Shown here: positions 57,704-64,000 of the stretch, in pieces | Position numbering within the stretch: the stretch's first letter is position 1 | Layout of the letters: each line of letters opens with the position of its first letter | Source of the DNA: Psychrobacillus sp. INOP01 | Lineage (GTDB): Bacteria > Bacillota > Bacilli > Bacillales_A > Planococcaceae | Direction of reading: 5' to 3' | NCBI RefSeq assembly: GCF_018140925.1 | Contig: NZ_CP073315.1 | Location: forward strand, 310,001-374,000 | DNA: 64,000 bases | Translations under genes and position numbers: made by a program | Notes under the pieces: model-generated | Seen by the model: the letters and a program-made list of their open reading frames with translations, nothing else | What the model was told of the DNA's origin: nothing | Databases searched by the model: none

Positions 57704-58561
57704 TTATTTATTAGTTAATGTATTTTCAGCCGCTAAACAAGTATTTTCCATAAGCATTGCGATTGTCATTGGACCAACACCACCAGGAACTGGAGTAATT
57801 TTAGAAGCTACTTCTTGTGCTGAAGCAAAGTCCACATCTCCGCAGAGCTTGTTGTTCTCATCTCGGTTGATGCCTACATCAATGACAACTGCTCCTTCTT
57901 TTATATAACTAGCATCTATCATCTTAGTTCTACCGGTTGCTACAACTAAAATATCCGCATGTTTAGTAAAAGAGTGTAAATCTTTTGTTCTAGAATGACA
58001 GTAAGTAACTGTTGCATCCTTTTGTAACAATAACTGACCCATCGGTTTACCAACAATGTTACTACGACCAATAATAACAGCATGTTTTCCTGCAATCTCA
58101 ACATCACTGTATTCGAGTAATTTCATAACGCCAAAAGGTGTACAAGGAAGGAAAGATTGTTGACCAATCATCATTTTCCCAACATTTTCTGGATGGAAAC
58201 CATCAACATCCTTTTGCGGAGAAATAGCTGCAATTACTCTGTCCTCATCAATTTGCGAAGGCAATGGTAGTTGAACTAAAATACCATGAATTTTTATATC
58301 TTGGTTAAGTGCCTCTACATTTTTAAGAAGTTCATCTTCAGAAATATTTTCGTCTAACTCTATTAGCACGGAGTACATACCTAAACGCTCGCAAGTTTTT
58401 GCTTTATTGTTTACGTATGTTTGTGATGCAGGATTACTTCCAACTAAAACAACTGCTAATCCTGGAACGACACCTTTAGATTTTAGTTTTTCAACACGTT
58501 CTTTCACTTTTTCTGTAACTAATCCTGCAATTTGTTTTCCATCAATTTTGTTAGTAGACAA
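57704..58561 (-). CDS. folD: Methylenetetrahydrofolate dehydrogenase/cyclohydrolase
   Basis: A 285-residue bifunctional enzyme that interconverts 5,10-methylene- and 10-formyl-tetrahydrofolate. [19 protein letters not shown] holds the catalytic lysine (KxxxC region), [10 protein letters not shown] the next conserved block, and [21 protein letters not shown] the NADP-binding region. [18 protein letters not shown] is the C-terminal signature. TTG start after AAGGAG. Confidence 0.97.
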
Positions 58562-58588
58562 TTCAAACGCTCCTTAAGTCAATGTAGA

Positions 58589-58966
58589 TTATTGCTCTGC
58601 ATATTTGGATAAAACACCATTTACGAAACGACTTGACTTCTCGTCACCAAATACTTTAGAAATTTCTAGTGCTTCATTGATCACTACTTTAGCCGGTGTT
58701 TCTTCAGTGAATAGTAATTCAAATACAGCAATTCTCAGTACTGTACGTTCAATTTTCGGAAGTCTAGAAAGCGACCAGTTTTCTAGTTTATCTGTTAAAG
58801 AAGCATCTATTTCCTCTTTATGATTCACGACTCCAGTCACTACTTGTGTCAAAAAAGAATCTTGTTCTTCCGTAACATGTCCAATAGCTTCTTCTATGGA
58901 AATTTCATGATTGTCTAATTGAAATAGAGCTTGTAATGCTAATTCTCTCGCTTGTCTTCGTTTCAT
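58589..58966 (-). CDS. nusB: Transcription antitermination factor NusB
   Basis: A 125-residue all-helical protein: RRQARELALQALFQLD at the N-terminus and AVFELLF, KVVINEALEISKVFGDEKSSRFVNGVL near the end are NusB hallmarks. With NusE (S10) it supports rRNA antitermination. AAGGAG precedes the ATG. It lies 27 bases before folD, with which it probably forms an operon. Confidence 0.96.
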   Translation of the reverse strand: MKRRQARELALQALFQLDNHEISIEEAIGHVTEEQDSFLTQVVTGVVNHKEEIDASLTDKLENWSLSRLPKIERTVLRIAVFELLFTEETPAKVVINEALEISKVFGDEKSSRFVNGVLSKYAEQ

Positions 58967-59041
58967 TATTTAGTTCTCCTTTAAATGTAACTATCTAGAC
59001 AATCATAGCATATTTTTTTGTAGTATGTGTATTAGAAAGTC

Positions 59042-59084
59042 AAAAAAAGAGAAAGAGCTATTTTTCCTAATAGCTCTTTCTCTT
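59042..59084 (-). terminator. Intrinsic terminator after yqhY
   Basis: AAAGAGAAAGAGCTAT and ATAGCTCTTTCTCTTT form a stem of about 15 pairs; the T-run follows on the minus strand. It isolates accBC-yqhY from nusB. Confidence 0.93.
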
Positions 59085-59089
59085 CTATT

Positions 59090-59482
59090 CTATTCTGTTG
59101 TATCGAATTGAACACCTGTAATATGTACATTCACTTCTTTAGGTGTTAAACTCGTCATATTTTCGATCGCTTGACGAATTTGTGATTGGACTTCTCTTGC
59201 AACTGTAGGCACAGATGAACCATATTTCACAAGGCAATATACGTCGATAAACAATCCATCATTATTTATCTCCGTTTTAATACCCTTGCCATGTACTTTT
59301 TTCCCTAAACGTTCTACTACACCTGCAGCAAAGTTTCCTCGTGTACCAGCAATGCCTTCAACTTCATTTGTAGCAATTCCAGCAATCACTGTAATTACTT
59401 CGGGAGCAATTTCTATTGTCCCTAGATATTCTTTTCCTTCAGGAGTCATTTGAACAAACTTTTGTTCAGTAGTTTCTGTCAT
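59090..59482 (-). CDS. yqhY: Asp23/Gls24-family protein YqhY
   Basis: A 130-residue protein of the Asp23/DUF322 family: GTIEIAPEVITVIAGIATNEVEGIAG and the C-terminal LTPKEVNVHITGVQF. Many Firmicutes have it directly after accBC, and YqhY is thought to influence acetyl-CoA carboxylase or malonyl-CoA supply. The start is the ATG eight bases after AAGGAG. It lies 15 bases after accC. Confidence 0.92.
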   Translation of the reverse strand: MTETTEQKFVQMTPEGKEYLGTIEIAPEVITVIAGIATNEVEGIAGTRGNFAAGVVERLGKKVHGKGIKTEINNDGLFIDVYCLVKYGSSVPTVAREVQSQIRQAIENMTSLTPKEVNVHITGVQFDTTE

Positions 59483-59497
59483 ATCCTTCACTCCTTA

Positions 59498-60847
59498 TTA
59501 TGAATTCATTACATCATATTTTTCTAAGAATTTAGTATCAAAATCACCCGATACAAATACTTCATGACTCATGAGCTTCGAATGGAATTCTATTGTAGTT
59601 TCTACCCCTTCGATAGCAAATTCACTTAGTGCACGCTTCATTTTAGCGATTGCTTCTTCTCGAGTTGCAGCATGGACTATAAGCTTTGCAACCATTGAAT
59701 CATAAAACGGTGGAATCGTATAACCTGGGTATACAGCTGAATCTACGCGAACTCCTAAACCTCCCGGAGGTAAATAAAACTCAACTAGGCCTGGAGAAGG
59801 CATAAAGTTTTTCGCAGGGTTCTCCGCATTGATACGGCATTCAATTGCCCATCCATTAAGTTTAATATCTTCTTGTTCGAATGGCAATTTTTCTCCAATA
59901 GCAACTAAGAGCATTTGTTTGATCAAATCTACACCTGTAATCATTTCTGTGACAGGATGCTCTACTTGAATACGTGTGTTCATTTCCATAAAGTAGAATT
60001 TTTGTTCTATATGATCAAAGATAAATTCTACTGTACCTGCACTTTCATAACCAACAGCAAGTGCTGCCTTCACAGCTGCTGCTCCCATTTCAGCGCGAAG
60101 CTCCTCAGACAATGCAGGAGATGGTGCTTCTTCCACTAGCTTTTGCATACGACGCTGAACGGTACAATCGCGTTCACCTAAGTGAACCGCATTTCCGTGA
60201 GCATCAGCTAACACTTGTATTTCCACATGACGGAATACCTCAATATATTTCTCTAAGTAAACTCCAGGGTTACCAAATGCAGCTGCAGCTTCTTTTTGAG
60301 TTATTTTAATCCCTTTTAGGAGATCTTCCTCGTCTTTAGCGACACGGATTCCCTTACCACCGCCACCAGCAGTAGCTTTGATAATCACAGGAAATCCTAT
60401 TGCATTAGCAACTTTCAATGCATCTTCATCGGTTTCAACAATACCTTTAGATCCTGGAACTGTTGGTACTCCTGCTTTTTGCATTGTTTCTTTTGCTACA
60501 TCCTTAATCCCCATGCTTTTAATAGCAGAAGAAGTTGGACCGATAAATTTAATACCACATTCTTCACATAGCTCTGCAAACTCGGCATTTTCTGCTAGGA
60601 ATCCATAACCAGGATGAATTCCTTCACAACCAGTAAGTTTAGCTACAGTTAGGATGTTGGAGAAATTCAAATAGGAATCCTTTGAAAGCCTCGGACCTAT
60701 ACAGTAAGCTTCGTCAGCTATTTGCACATGAAGTGCTTCACGGTCTGCTTCAGAATACACAGCAACAGTTTCGATATCTAATTCTTTACATGCACGTATT
60801 ATACGGACAGCTATTTCTCCGCGATTTGCGATCAGTACTTTTTTCAT
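59498..60847 (-). CDS. accC: Biotin carboxylase subunit of acetyl-CoA carboxylase
   Basis: About 449 residues, an ATP-grasp enzyme that carboxylates biotin on Acc[20 protein letters not shown] at the N-terminus, [15 protein letters not shown] (glycine-rich ATP loop), [17 protein letters not shown] and [16 protein letters not shown] are diagnostic. The start is the second of two adjacent ATGs, eight bases after AAGGAG. It lies directly downstream of accB. Confidence 0.97.
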
Positions 60848-60863
60848 CATCCTTGCTCCTTTC

Positions 60864-61361
60864 TTAGTTTCCTTTAACGAGGAACAGAGGTTGACCATAT
60901 TCAACTAATTGTCCATCTTTCACAAGAATTTCTACAACTTCTCCTTCAATTTCAGCTTCAATTTCATTGAACAGCTTCATTGCTTCTACGATACAGACGA
61001 TAGAATCAGTCGACACTTTTGTACCAACTTCTACGAATGCAGATGCATCGGGAGAAGAGGATTGATAGAATGTTCCAACCATCGGTGAAATAATTGTATG
61101 TAACGAGCTATCCACAACACTGTCAGTAGCTTCTTCAACAACCAATTCCTTTGGTATCTCTTGAACAATAGGTGCTTTCACTTCTACTTGTTTTGGTTGT
61201 TCTACAATAGATGAACTATCAAAGGTTTCACTAGATGAATTGACAAAACCTTTTTCATTTTTTTTCAATTTAATCTTTGTACCTTCTGATTCGTATAAAA
61301 ATTCATCTAGTGACGATTGATCGATTAGTTTTATAATTTCTCTTATTTCTTGAATCTTCAT
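60864..61361 (-). CDS. accB: Biotin carboxyl carrier protein
   Basis: A 165-residue BCCP. An N-terminal helical region ([20 protein letters not shown]) and a hydrophilic linker lead to the biotinyl domain with Lys129 in EAMKLF, the biotin attachment site, preceded by [14 protein letters not shown]. It carries carboxybiotin from AccC to the transferase. AAGGGGA precedes the ATG. It starts the accB-accC-yqhY operon. Confidence 0.97.
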
Positions 61362-61463
61362 TTAGTTAATCCCCTTTAATCTAATTATTAATTGCTCCAT
61401 ATTCTATTTTAGACGTTTTCGTGTAAATTTGAAATAGATAGGGGTAATTATTCTGAAATAATA

Positions 61464-61487
61464 AAAAAAAGCGCCCCTTCAGGCACT
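61464..61487 (-). terminator. Intrinsic terminator after spoIIIAH
   Basis: AGTGCC and GGCGCT (one G-U) with a T-run of eight on the minus strand, ending the spoIIIA operon before accB. Confidence 0.8.
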
Positions 61488-61532
61488 CTTCAATATCGCT
61501 ATATATTAAGTATTTTTTAATTTTCTTATAGA

Positions 61533-62063
61533 TTATTGGCCATTAAAATTAACTTCAACATTATAAGCTTTCGGCCACTCACGCTTAACTGCATAAATAA
61601 TTTCAGATGCTTTTTTAGTCGATTGTTCATTTGCCACAACATCTATTAAAACATCACTTTCTTCTATACGCACTAGTGCGTCATCATATCCTAATGATTT
61701 GATGATTAACTCCAACATCGCTTCTGTGGAATCAATTTTAACTAGTTCTTCAATTTGGTTATAAGCCTCGTCTTTTTGTTCTGCTGTAAATTCATTGGAA
61801 CCTACTTTTTTAGTTAATTGTTCAGTTAGTTGACTCCGTTTTTCTGTTACTTCCATTCTCATTTCTTCAAATGCATTACTTTGAGAAACAAATGATTCTT
61901 CATTTGTCGAAGAAGTTTCTACTAACCCTACCTCATCTAACGTGTCATCGGAAAATAGAGCAATTCCATCGAATGGTGATGGTCGATCCGATACATAAAA
62001 AACTGTCACTACTGCTACTAAACTAAATAATGTTAAAAACCATACAGATCTCTTTTTATTCAT
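61533..62063 (-). CDS. spoIIIAH: Stage III sporulation protein SpoIIIAH
   Basis: A 176-residue mother-cell protein. One N-terminal helix (VWFLTLFSLVAVVTVFYVS) anchors it; a helical region with the EscJ-like ring-building domain (NQIEELVKIDSTEAMLELIIKSLGYDDALVRI) faces the forespore and meets SpoIIQ. It is shorter than the 218-residue B. subtilis protein, mainly in the linker. GGAGG precedes the ATG, and the start lies one base after the spoIIIAG stop. Confidence 0.95.
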   Translation of the reverse strand: MNKKRSVWFLTLFSLVAVVTVFYVSDRPSPFDGIALFSDDTLDEVGLVETSSTNEESFVSQSNAFEEMRMEVTEKRSQLTEQLTKKVGSNEFTAEQKDEAYNQIEELVKIDSTEAMLELIIKSLGYDDALVRIEESDVLIDVVANEQSTKKASEIIYAVKREWPKAYNVEVNFNGQ

Positions 62064-62064
62064 A

Positions 62065-62490
62065 TTATTTATCCTCCAATTCCATTTCTTCTATCACAAT
62101 TCGATGTGGAGATATCTGCAATACAGATGATAATGTCTTTACCAAACTATTTTGTATACGTTTATCGTTCGCCCCTTCCGCAACTACTAGTATTCCAATC
62201 AATTCCTCTTTGTTCCCTTTACTGTCACTTGTCCACTGGAAAAATGAAACATCACTTTCCGAAGTGTTTTCAGAACTAACATCGTAATGGAAATAAACTG
62301 CAACCTTTCCTACCCCGTTAATCTTCTCTAGTATGGATATTAGATTTTCCGAATCTTGGTAGGTTGGAACTTCAGTTTCATTATTGCTTTCCCCATCACG
62401 AGTAAGTAAGTCAGAAAAAAGTAGACTAATGAAAAGAACAGCTATACAAATGACAACAAAACGAAAAGTGGGTTTTTGTTTAACTGAAAT
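62065..62490 (-). CDS. spoIIIAG: Stage III sporulation protein SpoIIIAG (reduced, apparent AUU start)
   Basis: About 141 residues against 229 in B. subtilis. One N-terminal helix (FVVICIAVLFISLLF) and the ring-building domain: LISILEKINGVGKVAVYF and LIGILVVAEGANDKRIQN, then LSSVLQISPHRIVIEEME. The large beta-ring insertion of B. subtilis AG is missing. No ATG, GTG or TTG lies before the helix; the first possible codon after an in-frame TGA is ATT, with AAGGGTGA six to eight bases before it. The start remains uncertain. Confidence 0.8.
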   Translation of the reverse strand: MSVKQKPTFRFVVICIAVLFISLLFSDLLTRDGESNNETEVPTYQDSENLISILEKINGVGKVAVYFHYDVSSENTSESDVSFFQWTSDSKGNKEELIGILVVAEGANDKRIQNSLVKTLSSVLQISPHRIVIEEMELEDK

Positions 62491-62545
62491 GGTGATTCAC
62501 CCTTCTTTTCATGATGGATACAATACTTTATGCAAGACAACCTGT

Positions 62546-62695
62546 TTATATGAAGAGAAAGCACATAATCCAATAGATTATCGCAATTTTCACAAGAAAT
62601 CCCGATCGTTCCTTGTCTGTATGCTCCAGTAGAATAGACAGTAGCTCGCCCACTAGAACGATTAATAGAATGCCAAAGAGAAGTGTCGTAACGAT
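62546..62695 (-). CDS. spoIIIAF: SpoIIIAF remnant or minimal form (apparent AUC start)
   Basis: At the place of spoIIIAF there is only a 49-codon frame: helix IVTTLLFGILLIVLVGELL, a charged loop LEHTDKERSG, and a second helix LVKIAIIYWIMCFLF. This matches the two N-terminal helices of SpoIIIAF but lacks its ring-building domain (B. subtilis AF has 206 residues). No ATG, GTG or TTG is in frame; ATC lies eight bases after AAAGGA. It could be a minimal AF, or a degraded gene. Confidence 0.5.
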   Translation of the reverse strand: MVTTLLFGILLIVLVGELLSILLEHTDKERSGFLVKIAIIYWIMCFLFI

Positions 62696-62700
62696 GGTTA

Positions 62701-63612
62701 CTATCCTTTCCCACTTATTAATAGTTTTGCAAATAACATTGTTAATATAATCGTGAAGAAAAATGTAAATGCGATTAATACGGAAATTATGGAAAGAACA
62801 AAAAGTGTCTTTCCGATATCATCTAATAGTCCACTTATATTGCCATCTACAAAAGGTTCTAAAATAGCGCCAAGTAAACGGTACAAAAAAGCAATGAGAA
62901 TTGTTTGTATGGTTGGAATAGAAACTAACATTAACACCGATAAAATAACTGCATTTCCGGTTATAACAGAAGCTGAAGAAGAAAAGTTTTTCATCGTGCT
63001 GATACTTTCCGTCAGTAAAGATCCGACAAATGGAATATTATTTTGAATGAGCCGCTTCACAGTCTCGTTGACAGTGCCACTTACAGACCACGTAATCAAA
63101 CCATTTACTGACATGAAAATACTGTATAAGAGCAGAATAATAGAAGTGGAACCTATTAAAGTTAAACGGATGAGATCAGACATTTTTGAAAATGAAGTAG
63201 AAGGATGAATTCTACTGATCAAATCAAATATAAATGCAGCCATAATAGCAGGTATTAAAATTTTCCCCGCTAATACTGTAGTAAAGGATGCAAATAACAT
63301 GACAGCTGGATTCCATGAGGTTATTAAAAATGCTCCTCCTGAAGCAGCAATTCCCAGTGTCAGAATTGGATATATACCTAGGAAGAGAGTCACTAATTCA
63401 GACGTCATTGCCTGAATCATTTCTAATGCTCTAATAGCTGGTTCTAGACAATAGATACATATTATTAACATAAATAATAATTTAAATAATCTTTTGCTGG
63501 ACGGAATAAACCACTCTAAGCAGATAAAGGCAAATCCGAATAATAGCATGTACGAAAATGTTTGCGCTACCTCTTTGATAGGCTTCAGTAAAGACATTAT
63601 TATTTCTTCCAT
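62701..63612 (-). CDS. spoIIIAE: Stage III sporulation protein SpoIIIAE
   Basis: A 303-residue polytopic membrane protein with about eight helices. The segments SWNPAVMLFASFTTVLAGKILIPA and ITGNAVILSVLMLVSIP fit SpoIIIAE, a mother-cell membrane part of the SpoIIIA-SpoIIQ feeding tube. It is about 95 residues shorter than B. subtilis AE, lacking the N-terminal secreted stretch. GAAGGA lies ten bases before the ATG. Its stop is followed directly by the short AF frame. Confidence 0.9.
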   Translation of the reverse strand: MEEIIMSLLKPIKEVAQTFSYMLLFGFAFICLEWFIPSSKRLFKLLFMLIICIYCLEPAIRALEMIQAMTSELVTLFLGIYPILTLGIAASGGAFLITSWNPAVMLFASFTTVLAGKILIPAIMAAFIFDLISRIHPSTSFSKMSDLIRLTLIGSTSIILLLYSIFMSVNGLITWSVSGTVNETVKRLIQNNIPFVGSLLTESISTMKNFSSSASVITGNAVILSVLMLVSIPTIQTILIAFLYRLLGAILEPFVDGNISGLLDDIGKTLFVLSIISVLIAFTFFFTIILTMLFAKLLISGKG

Positions 63613-63626
63613 TGCTGTTCATTCCT

Positions 63627-64000
63627 TCAAGAAAGTAGTCCCAAAAGTGATAAAAACTTGTCATAGAATTGCTTCATATGATTCAGCCAGACAATAAGGA
63701 GAATAGCTTTTGTCGTAAAAGTGAATATAGAAGCAAGGCTTGTATATTCATAGTCCAAAAGAAGGTCTTCGATTATTTGTGAAAGAAATAATAAGACGAC
63801 TGAAAATAAAAGTAGTTTAAAGACGGGTAGTAGGTTCGCTGGTACGACGGAGATGTATTGGGAGACATAAGGAATGATAAATACGGTGAATATATAAGTT
63901 AAAAAAAGAAAAATATAAATCGTATATACAATTGAATGAATGCGAGGGTATGATTCTTTAATTAGTTGCAGTAAAACAAATGCTAGAATAATTGTTATGT
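63627..64000 (-). CDS. spoIIIAD: SpoIIIAD-like membrane protein (partial, N-terminus off the window)
   Basis: The frame is open over 124 codons to the right edge and ends with a TGA 14 bases before spoIIIAE. It shows about four membrane helices (IILAFVLLQLIKESYPRIHS, IFTVFIIPYVSQYISVV, LLLFSVVLLFLSQIIEDLL, IFTFTTKAILLIVWL). The place and topology fit SpoIIIAD, which with AC and AE forms the membrane part. Sequence similarity to B. subtilis AD is weak by eye, so the name rests on position. Confidence 0.7.
   Translation of the reverse strand, partial: ITIILAFVLLQLIKESYPRIHSIVYTIYIFLFLTYIFTVFIIPYVSQYISVVPANLLPVFKLLLFSVVLLFLSQIIEDLLLDYEYTSLASIFTFTTKAILLIVWLNHMKQFYDKFLSLLGLLS

Follow-up and report, generated by a model that had tools for sequence, protein, structure and literature searches.

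The spoIIIA operon of Psychrobacillus sp. INOP01 lies at the end of the window, by which we mean the whole stretch of 64,000 nucleotides analysed (NZ_CP073315.1, positions 310,001 to 374,000). On the minus strand, the gene order is AC-(AD)-AE-AF-AG-AH; AD crosses the end of the window and AC lies beyond it. The next frame upstream of AC is efp-like, with neither AA nor AB in between, and the homologs of AE, AG, and AH share one operon adjoining efp/accB-accC. The closest named locus is that of P. psychrodurans, with 97% identity in AE. The features are listed in Table 1. No family match was found for AD when Pfam and NCBIfam were searched. A search of positions 58000-64000 with Rfam at gathering cutoffs found no RNA elements, and a search for plasmid relatives gave no match. 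A SpoIIQ homolog is also present (NF053738, E 1.7e-51; 175 bits, below the model cutoff of 250), and it adjoins spoIID-, spoIIID-, and mbl-like frames.

Table 1. Features of the spoIIIA operon, in coordinates of the window
Feature	Position	Strand	Basis or remark
probable spoIIIAD	63627..64000, past window end, start ~64010	-	position between AC and AE alone
spoIIIAE short form, 303 aa, without N-terminal part	62701..63612	-	PF09546, E 2.3e-30
AF Shine-Dalgarno GGGAAAGGAT, overlaps AE stop	62703..62712	-	computed pairing -10.2 kcal/mol, gap 7 nt
spoIIIAF short form, two-helix hairpin, 49 codons from ATC (62549-62695) plus stop	62546..62695	-	start codon proposed
sigma-E-like -35 TCATATA, overlaps AF stop	62547..62553	-	invariant in 19 Psychrobacillus genomes
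sigma-E-like -10 CATAAAGT, 14 nt from -35	62525..62532	-	invariant; 2 mismatches to the consensus as we presume it
invariant ATGAAAAGAAGGGTGA with AG extended Shine-Dalgarno	62497..62512	-	19 genomes and computed pairing
spoIIIAG short form, proposed start ATT, 141 codons plus stop	62065..62490	-	TIGR02830 and 5WC3 matches
spoIIIAH, 176 aa, ATG start	61533..62063	-	PF12685, E 9.5e-17

A first-pass annotation, made from the letters of this DNA, had described AE as shortened, and this was confirmed. The AE frame encodes 303 aa, compared with 390-402 aa in four canonical AE open frames. The match to Pfam Spore_III_AE (PF09546) begins at profile position 70 of 321, and that to TIGR02829 at position 134 of 381. 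Since both profile matches start late, the missing part is the N-terminal one. The median omega of AE within Psychrobacillus was 0.06. The AE of Psychrobacillus sp. NEAU-3TGS (G016; L020 / L063) is broken up, with overlapping frames that cover query residues 1-54 and 44-303.

The frame of about 49 residues behind AE had been described as AF reduced to two helices, without its ring-building domain. AlphaFold2 predicted helices at residues 2-23 and 28-48 (pLDDT 78, pTM 0.43), and when the AF profile was aligned with four full-length AFs, the first ~50 residues alone aligned (hhalign E 3.3e-6, probability 88%). That description was confirmed. A short hydrophobic frame between AE and AG was found in 108/108 Planococcaceae loci (105 by filter, plus L065, L078, and L093), and in the 105 filtered loci it ends 43-61 codons past the AE stop. 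The median omega of AF over 109 usable Psychrobacillus pairs was 0.17 in frame; the two alternative frames gave 1.4 and 2.0. For AG, the median in this genus was 0.22. These ratios indicate purifying selection on both AF and AG. Taken with the alignment, they indicate that AF is not lost but kept as an N-terminal hairpin, which is new with respect to the published surveys.

AG (~141 residues) has kept its ring-building motif but not the insertion from which the cup of the 30-mer ring is made. Its profile matched B. subtilis SpoIIIAG (5WC3) over chain residues 44-83 and 129-177 (E 1.9e-11). At the insertion site, 10 profile positions stand in place of 45 chain residues of 5WC3, which bears out the earlier claim that the ring insertion is missing. 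The match of TIGR02830 to AG had an E value of 6.7e-14 and was below the cutoff of that model. The AG model had a pLDDT of 72 and a pTM of 0.53, with residues 73-93 disordered (pLDDT <50), and 5WC3 was its best Foldseek match (E 9e-4, TM 0.45, rmsd 16.6). It matched the fold of PrgK, EscJ, and FliF, which also carry the ring-building motif, weakly (E 0.003 and up), and by sequence AG groups with SpoIIIAG rather than with these proteins. The evidence that the model gives for the predicted AG fold is modest. In contrast to the codons around them, AG codons 7-10 (ACT TTT CGT TTT) showed no nucleotide change across the 19 Psychrobacillus genomes, even at third positions.

It had also been claimed that neither AF nor AG has ATG, GTG, or TTG in frame and that each has a Shine-Dalgarno placed for ATC (AF) and ATT (AG). 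For AG, this held over the first 60 codons of the open frame. For AF, none of the three codons occurs before TM1, and the claim needs a slight correction since an in-frame GTG is found at codon 15, within TM1. Both Shine-Dalgarno sequences are placed as described; with what we take to be the 16S tail, that of AG in the window pairs at -9.5 kcal/mol with a gap of 5 nt. Across the 19 genomes of the genus, which are 19 distinct regions, the 16 bases of ATGAAAAGAAGGGTGA are invariant, and their pairing ranges from -9.3 to -9.9 kcal/mol. Behind them, the site of the proposed AG start is ATT in eight genomes, ATC in six, ATA in four, and ATG in one (P. insolitus). The spacer between ATGAAAAGAAGGGTGA and this ATN is five bases in 6 genomes and six bases in 13. 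To account for this difference, a quickly built AE tree, with 31 of its 80 inner branches unresolved, needs five or more changes. Because one-base indels recur in the stretch before ATN, and there only, the AG frame is not maintained through this stretch. The encoded amino acid differs in 11% of genome pairs at AG codon 0, in 68% at codon -1, and in 82% at codon -2. All 13 genomes with the six-base spacer have an in-frame TGA before ATN, and 12 of them have no ATG, GTG, or TTG before the AG core. By this comparison, initiation of AG at AUN is well supported, and the non-AUG start that had been claimed for it stands.

Alternatively, AG could start at the invariant ATG that heads the 16-mer (MKRRV...), in frame in six genomes and via a frameshift in thirteen. 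This ATG is present in 19/19 genomes, is in frame with AG in the six with the five-base spacer, and lies 12 nt past the -10-like element, near the 5' end of the transcript expected from it. A canonical AG start may be used in those six genomes. In the other 13, however, an AG-frame TGA follows four to six bases behind the ATG block of the 16-mer, and the bases where a shift would be needed are not conserved. In addition, the ATN of P. insolitus is itself an ATG, and the T and G of the invariant ATG fall within or beside the predicted extended Shine-Dalgarno duplex. We consider a start at this ATG unlikely. Its conservation in the 13 genomes where it is out of the AG frame is unexplained unless it is part of the extended Shine-Dalgarno. 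In Rummeliibacillus (L093, L094, and L095), AG has no in-frame ATG, GTG, or TTG near its start, and GAAGGAGGAGATGTCCTTGG has an out-of-frame ATG, then an A-rich run.

The operon was then compared between 49 Planococcaceae genomes, including that of the window, and 32 genomes outside the family. Over-cutoff matches to AA, AB, and full AF were found in 0, 0, and 0 of the 49 family genomes versus 26, 27, and 27 of the 32 outside; a further outside genome (G072) had AA at 217 bits, under the cutoff. The AA ATPase and AB were thus without over-cutoff match in the genome of the window itself. A full-length AF with its ring-building domain, which would have spoken against the reduced form had it lain elsewhere, was found neither in this genome nor in the other 48 (PF09581). 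AE was matched in 37/49 family genomes, with open frames of 262-363 aa, and the other 12 had no AE match; outside the family, 27/32 genomes were matched, with open frames of 374-904 aa. The GerM domain was over cutoff in three family genomes (G020, G024, and G036), with a single partial match each, and a two-domain GerM was found in none of the 49. Outside the family, 25/32 were over cutoff, nearly all of them two-domain. The same short forms of AE, AF, and AG were seen in the 19 genomes of the genus and in the other family loci read (108 loci, 87 of them distinct regions). The reduced SpoIIIA of Psychrobacillus and other Planococcaceae loci is lineage-wide. The minimal apparatus that the first-pass annotation had proposed is therefore smaller still, with no over-cutoff AA or AB and no two-domain GerM found, and it is shared across the family. 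A sequencing error or a single decayed strain had been considered as the origin of the short forms, and this concern is answered by the family-wide reduction. The gene loss itself was already known, since AA, AB, and AF are given as missing in Planococcaceae or L. sphaericus in two previous reports (PMC7924749, PMC3533761).

AF and AG might also be decaying remnants of an apparatus that is being lost, in which case the missing starts would be early pseudogene damage. That AA, AB, and full-length AF are missing family-wide, that 12 genomes have no AE match, and that AE is split in G016 would agree with this. However, both frames are intact in 19/19 genomes of the genus at the low omega values given above, the AF frame is kept in all 108 loci, and strong Shine-Dalgarno sequences are retained. 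Decay is in our judgement very unlikely. A point against a functional apparatus is that one described Psychrobacillus species showed no spores (PMC13228071).

The start of AF was less sharply defined than that of AG. The AF Shine-Dalgarno pairs at -9.1 to -10.2 kcal/mol in 18/19 genomes and at -7.1 kcal/mol in the remaining one (L016). AF codon 0 is ATC in 13 genomes, and ATT, GTC, and GTT in one each, which makes A/GUY in 16/19; GUC and GUU are poor start codons. The other three genomes have AAC or GAT at codon 0, and two codons upstream of it they have an ATG that belongs to a TAATG overlap. They form one clade, so the exchange counts as one event. AF codons 1-4 are nearly as variable as the codons before the start, and the exact AF start is therefore less certain. 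For AF, the claimed non-AUG start is likely, and the boundary of that start is not sharp. An AE-AF fusion through -1 frameshifting around the end of AE would be in keeping with an AF frame that is open ahead of the AE stop in 18/19 genomes. We hold this reading to be very unlikely, since P. insolitus has a closed AF frame up to +8 past the AE stop, genera differ in the frame of AF relative to AE, a shared slippery heptamer was not seen, and a strong Shine-Dalgarno sits where initiation needs one.

Near-cognate AUN starts have been described for infC, ccpN, and cvfC1 of S. aureus, where they likewise have an extended start-proximal Shine-Dalgarno and are conserved across species (PMC13009471). 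Here, in contrast, the genes are two of a sporulation membrane complex, the third base is free (T/C/A, and G once), and the case is made from sequence. AF and AG are two candidates for joining the few conserved AUN starts on record. A literature search limited to open-licence papers found no published short AF and no published non-AUG start of AF or AG. The unusual start codons may explain why AF was reported missing.

We next consider the region between AF and AG. The elements TCATATA and CATAAAGT, 14 nt apart, are invariant in Psychrobacillus and overlap the AF stop. Scored against what we take to be the sigma-E consensus, 31 of 80 distinct family regions had a pair with two or fewer mismatches (Markov null 3.5%), 38 had three (null 18.6%), and 11 had four. 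The best pair had 14-nt spacing in 69/80 distinct regions, although the loci are related. B. subtilis and C. difficile are known to have an internal promoter ahead of AG (PMC6934232). With such a promoter here, AG and AH could be transcribed apart from AF, which ends at this point.

We propose, with a probability of about 0.7, that the operon encodes a SpoIIIA apparatus that is reduced throughout the Planococcaceae lineage but functional, with AUN-initiated AG and AF. The mother cell would have a membrane core made up of AC, AD, AE, and the AF hairpin. AG, with its plain ring-building motif, and AH would form the intermembrane part that meets SpoIIQ, without an AA motor. Initiation of AG at AUU, AUC, or AUA would be aided by the extended start-proximal Shine-Dalgarno, also on the internal sigma-E transcript. 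AF would be initiated at AUC directly behind the AE stop, probably in a manner coupled to termination of AE. The view of the product as a channel is taken from the B. subtilis model.

The SpoIIIA-SpoIIQ systems of B. subtilis and C. difficile resemble this locus in gene order, in the homology of AE, AG, and AH, in SpoIIQ, and in the internal promoter before AG (PMC6934232). In contrast, AA, AB, and a two-domain GerM were not found here, AE is without its N-terminal part, AF without the ring-building domain, and AG without the insertion. The sets published for Planococcaceae and L. sphaericus share the absence of AA and AB, whereas AF, and also AG in the discussion of one survey, are reported absent there (PMC7924749, PMC3533761) and have short forms here. 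This corrects the earlier reports of AF as absent. Previous reports showed that the ATPase motifs of AA are required in B. subtilis for sigma-G activity and efficient sporulation (PMC2703783), and that deleting AA, AB, AE, AG, or ACD reduces sporulation to ~0.001-0.003% (PMC12720343). A family with many spore formers nevertheless retains an operon in which AA and AB are missing and AE, AF, and AG are trimmed. It offers a natural test of how the apparatus functions, in which AC, the AE core, the AF hairpin, the AG ring motif, AH, and SpoIIQ are kept, and the motor, the AE N-terminal part, the AF ring domain, the AG insertion, and GerM are lost together. In the soil bacterium Psychrobacillus and its relatives, the presumed channel from mother cell to forming spore would be much reduced.

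Near-cognate starts should keep the synthesis of AF and AG below that of AE and AH. In S. aureus, AUU and AUA starts gave ~10% of the AUG level in poor medium, and one gene reached up to 30% in rich medium (PMC13009471). On this precedent, low, tuned synthesis of AF and AG may be expected, as the first-pass annotation had suggested. Low levels of AA, AE, and, as data not shown in that report, AF still allow efficient sporulation in B. subtilis (PMC2703783), so scarce AF would be tolerable.

Sporosarcina may keep AF scarce in another way. In 20 distinct Sporosarcina loci (L071, L073, L075, L077, L079, L081, L083, L084, L086, L087, L090, L096, L097, L099, L100, L101, L103, L104, L105, and L127), an NTG (19 ATG, 1 TTG) lies eight bases before the Phe-Leu of AF in the wrong frame, and it opens a four-codon frame, NTG NNN NNT TTY TRR. 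In 19/20 loci, no other NTG close to the AE stop has a better Shine-Dalgarno than this one; in L104, a GTG one codon later is better. The two frames would be joined if the Phe tRNA slipped by -1 on U UUY, just ahead of the stop. A stimulating RNA structure behind the slip site was not supported (mean z -0.16 in the 20 out-of-frame loci versus -0.34 in 19 in-frame loci), and TTTYTRR or similar stop-ending bases also occur in about 15/19 in-frame loci and are not special to the out-of-frame group. An in-frame ATG, GTG, or TTG shortly before Phe-Leu is absent in 12/20 out-of-frame loci and present in 8/20, five of these eight being ATGA- or GTGA-type overlaps with the AE stop. A tentative wider reading, to which we give somewhat less than an even chance, is that lineage-specific decoding devices in Planococcaceae keep the synthesis of the vestigial AF hairpin, and of AG in Psychrobacillus, low, by AUN starts in Psychrobacillus and by a -1 slip in two Sporosarcina clades, under selection for few AF copies per apparatus. 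It is weakened by the in-frame alternative in the eight loci. The out-of-frame state takes four changes on the AE tree, and the omega of AF was 0.19 in the out-of-frame group (20 loci) and 0.16 in the in-frame group (19 loci). At the 3' end of Sporosarcina AF, Gly-His-Ser codons overlap a -35-like TCATAGC, where the constraints on protein and promoter coincide.
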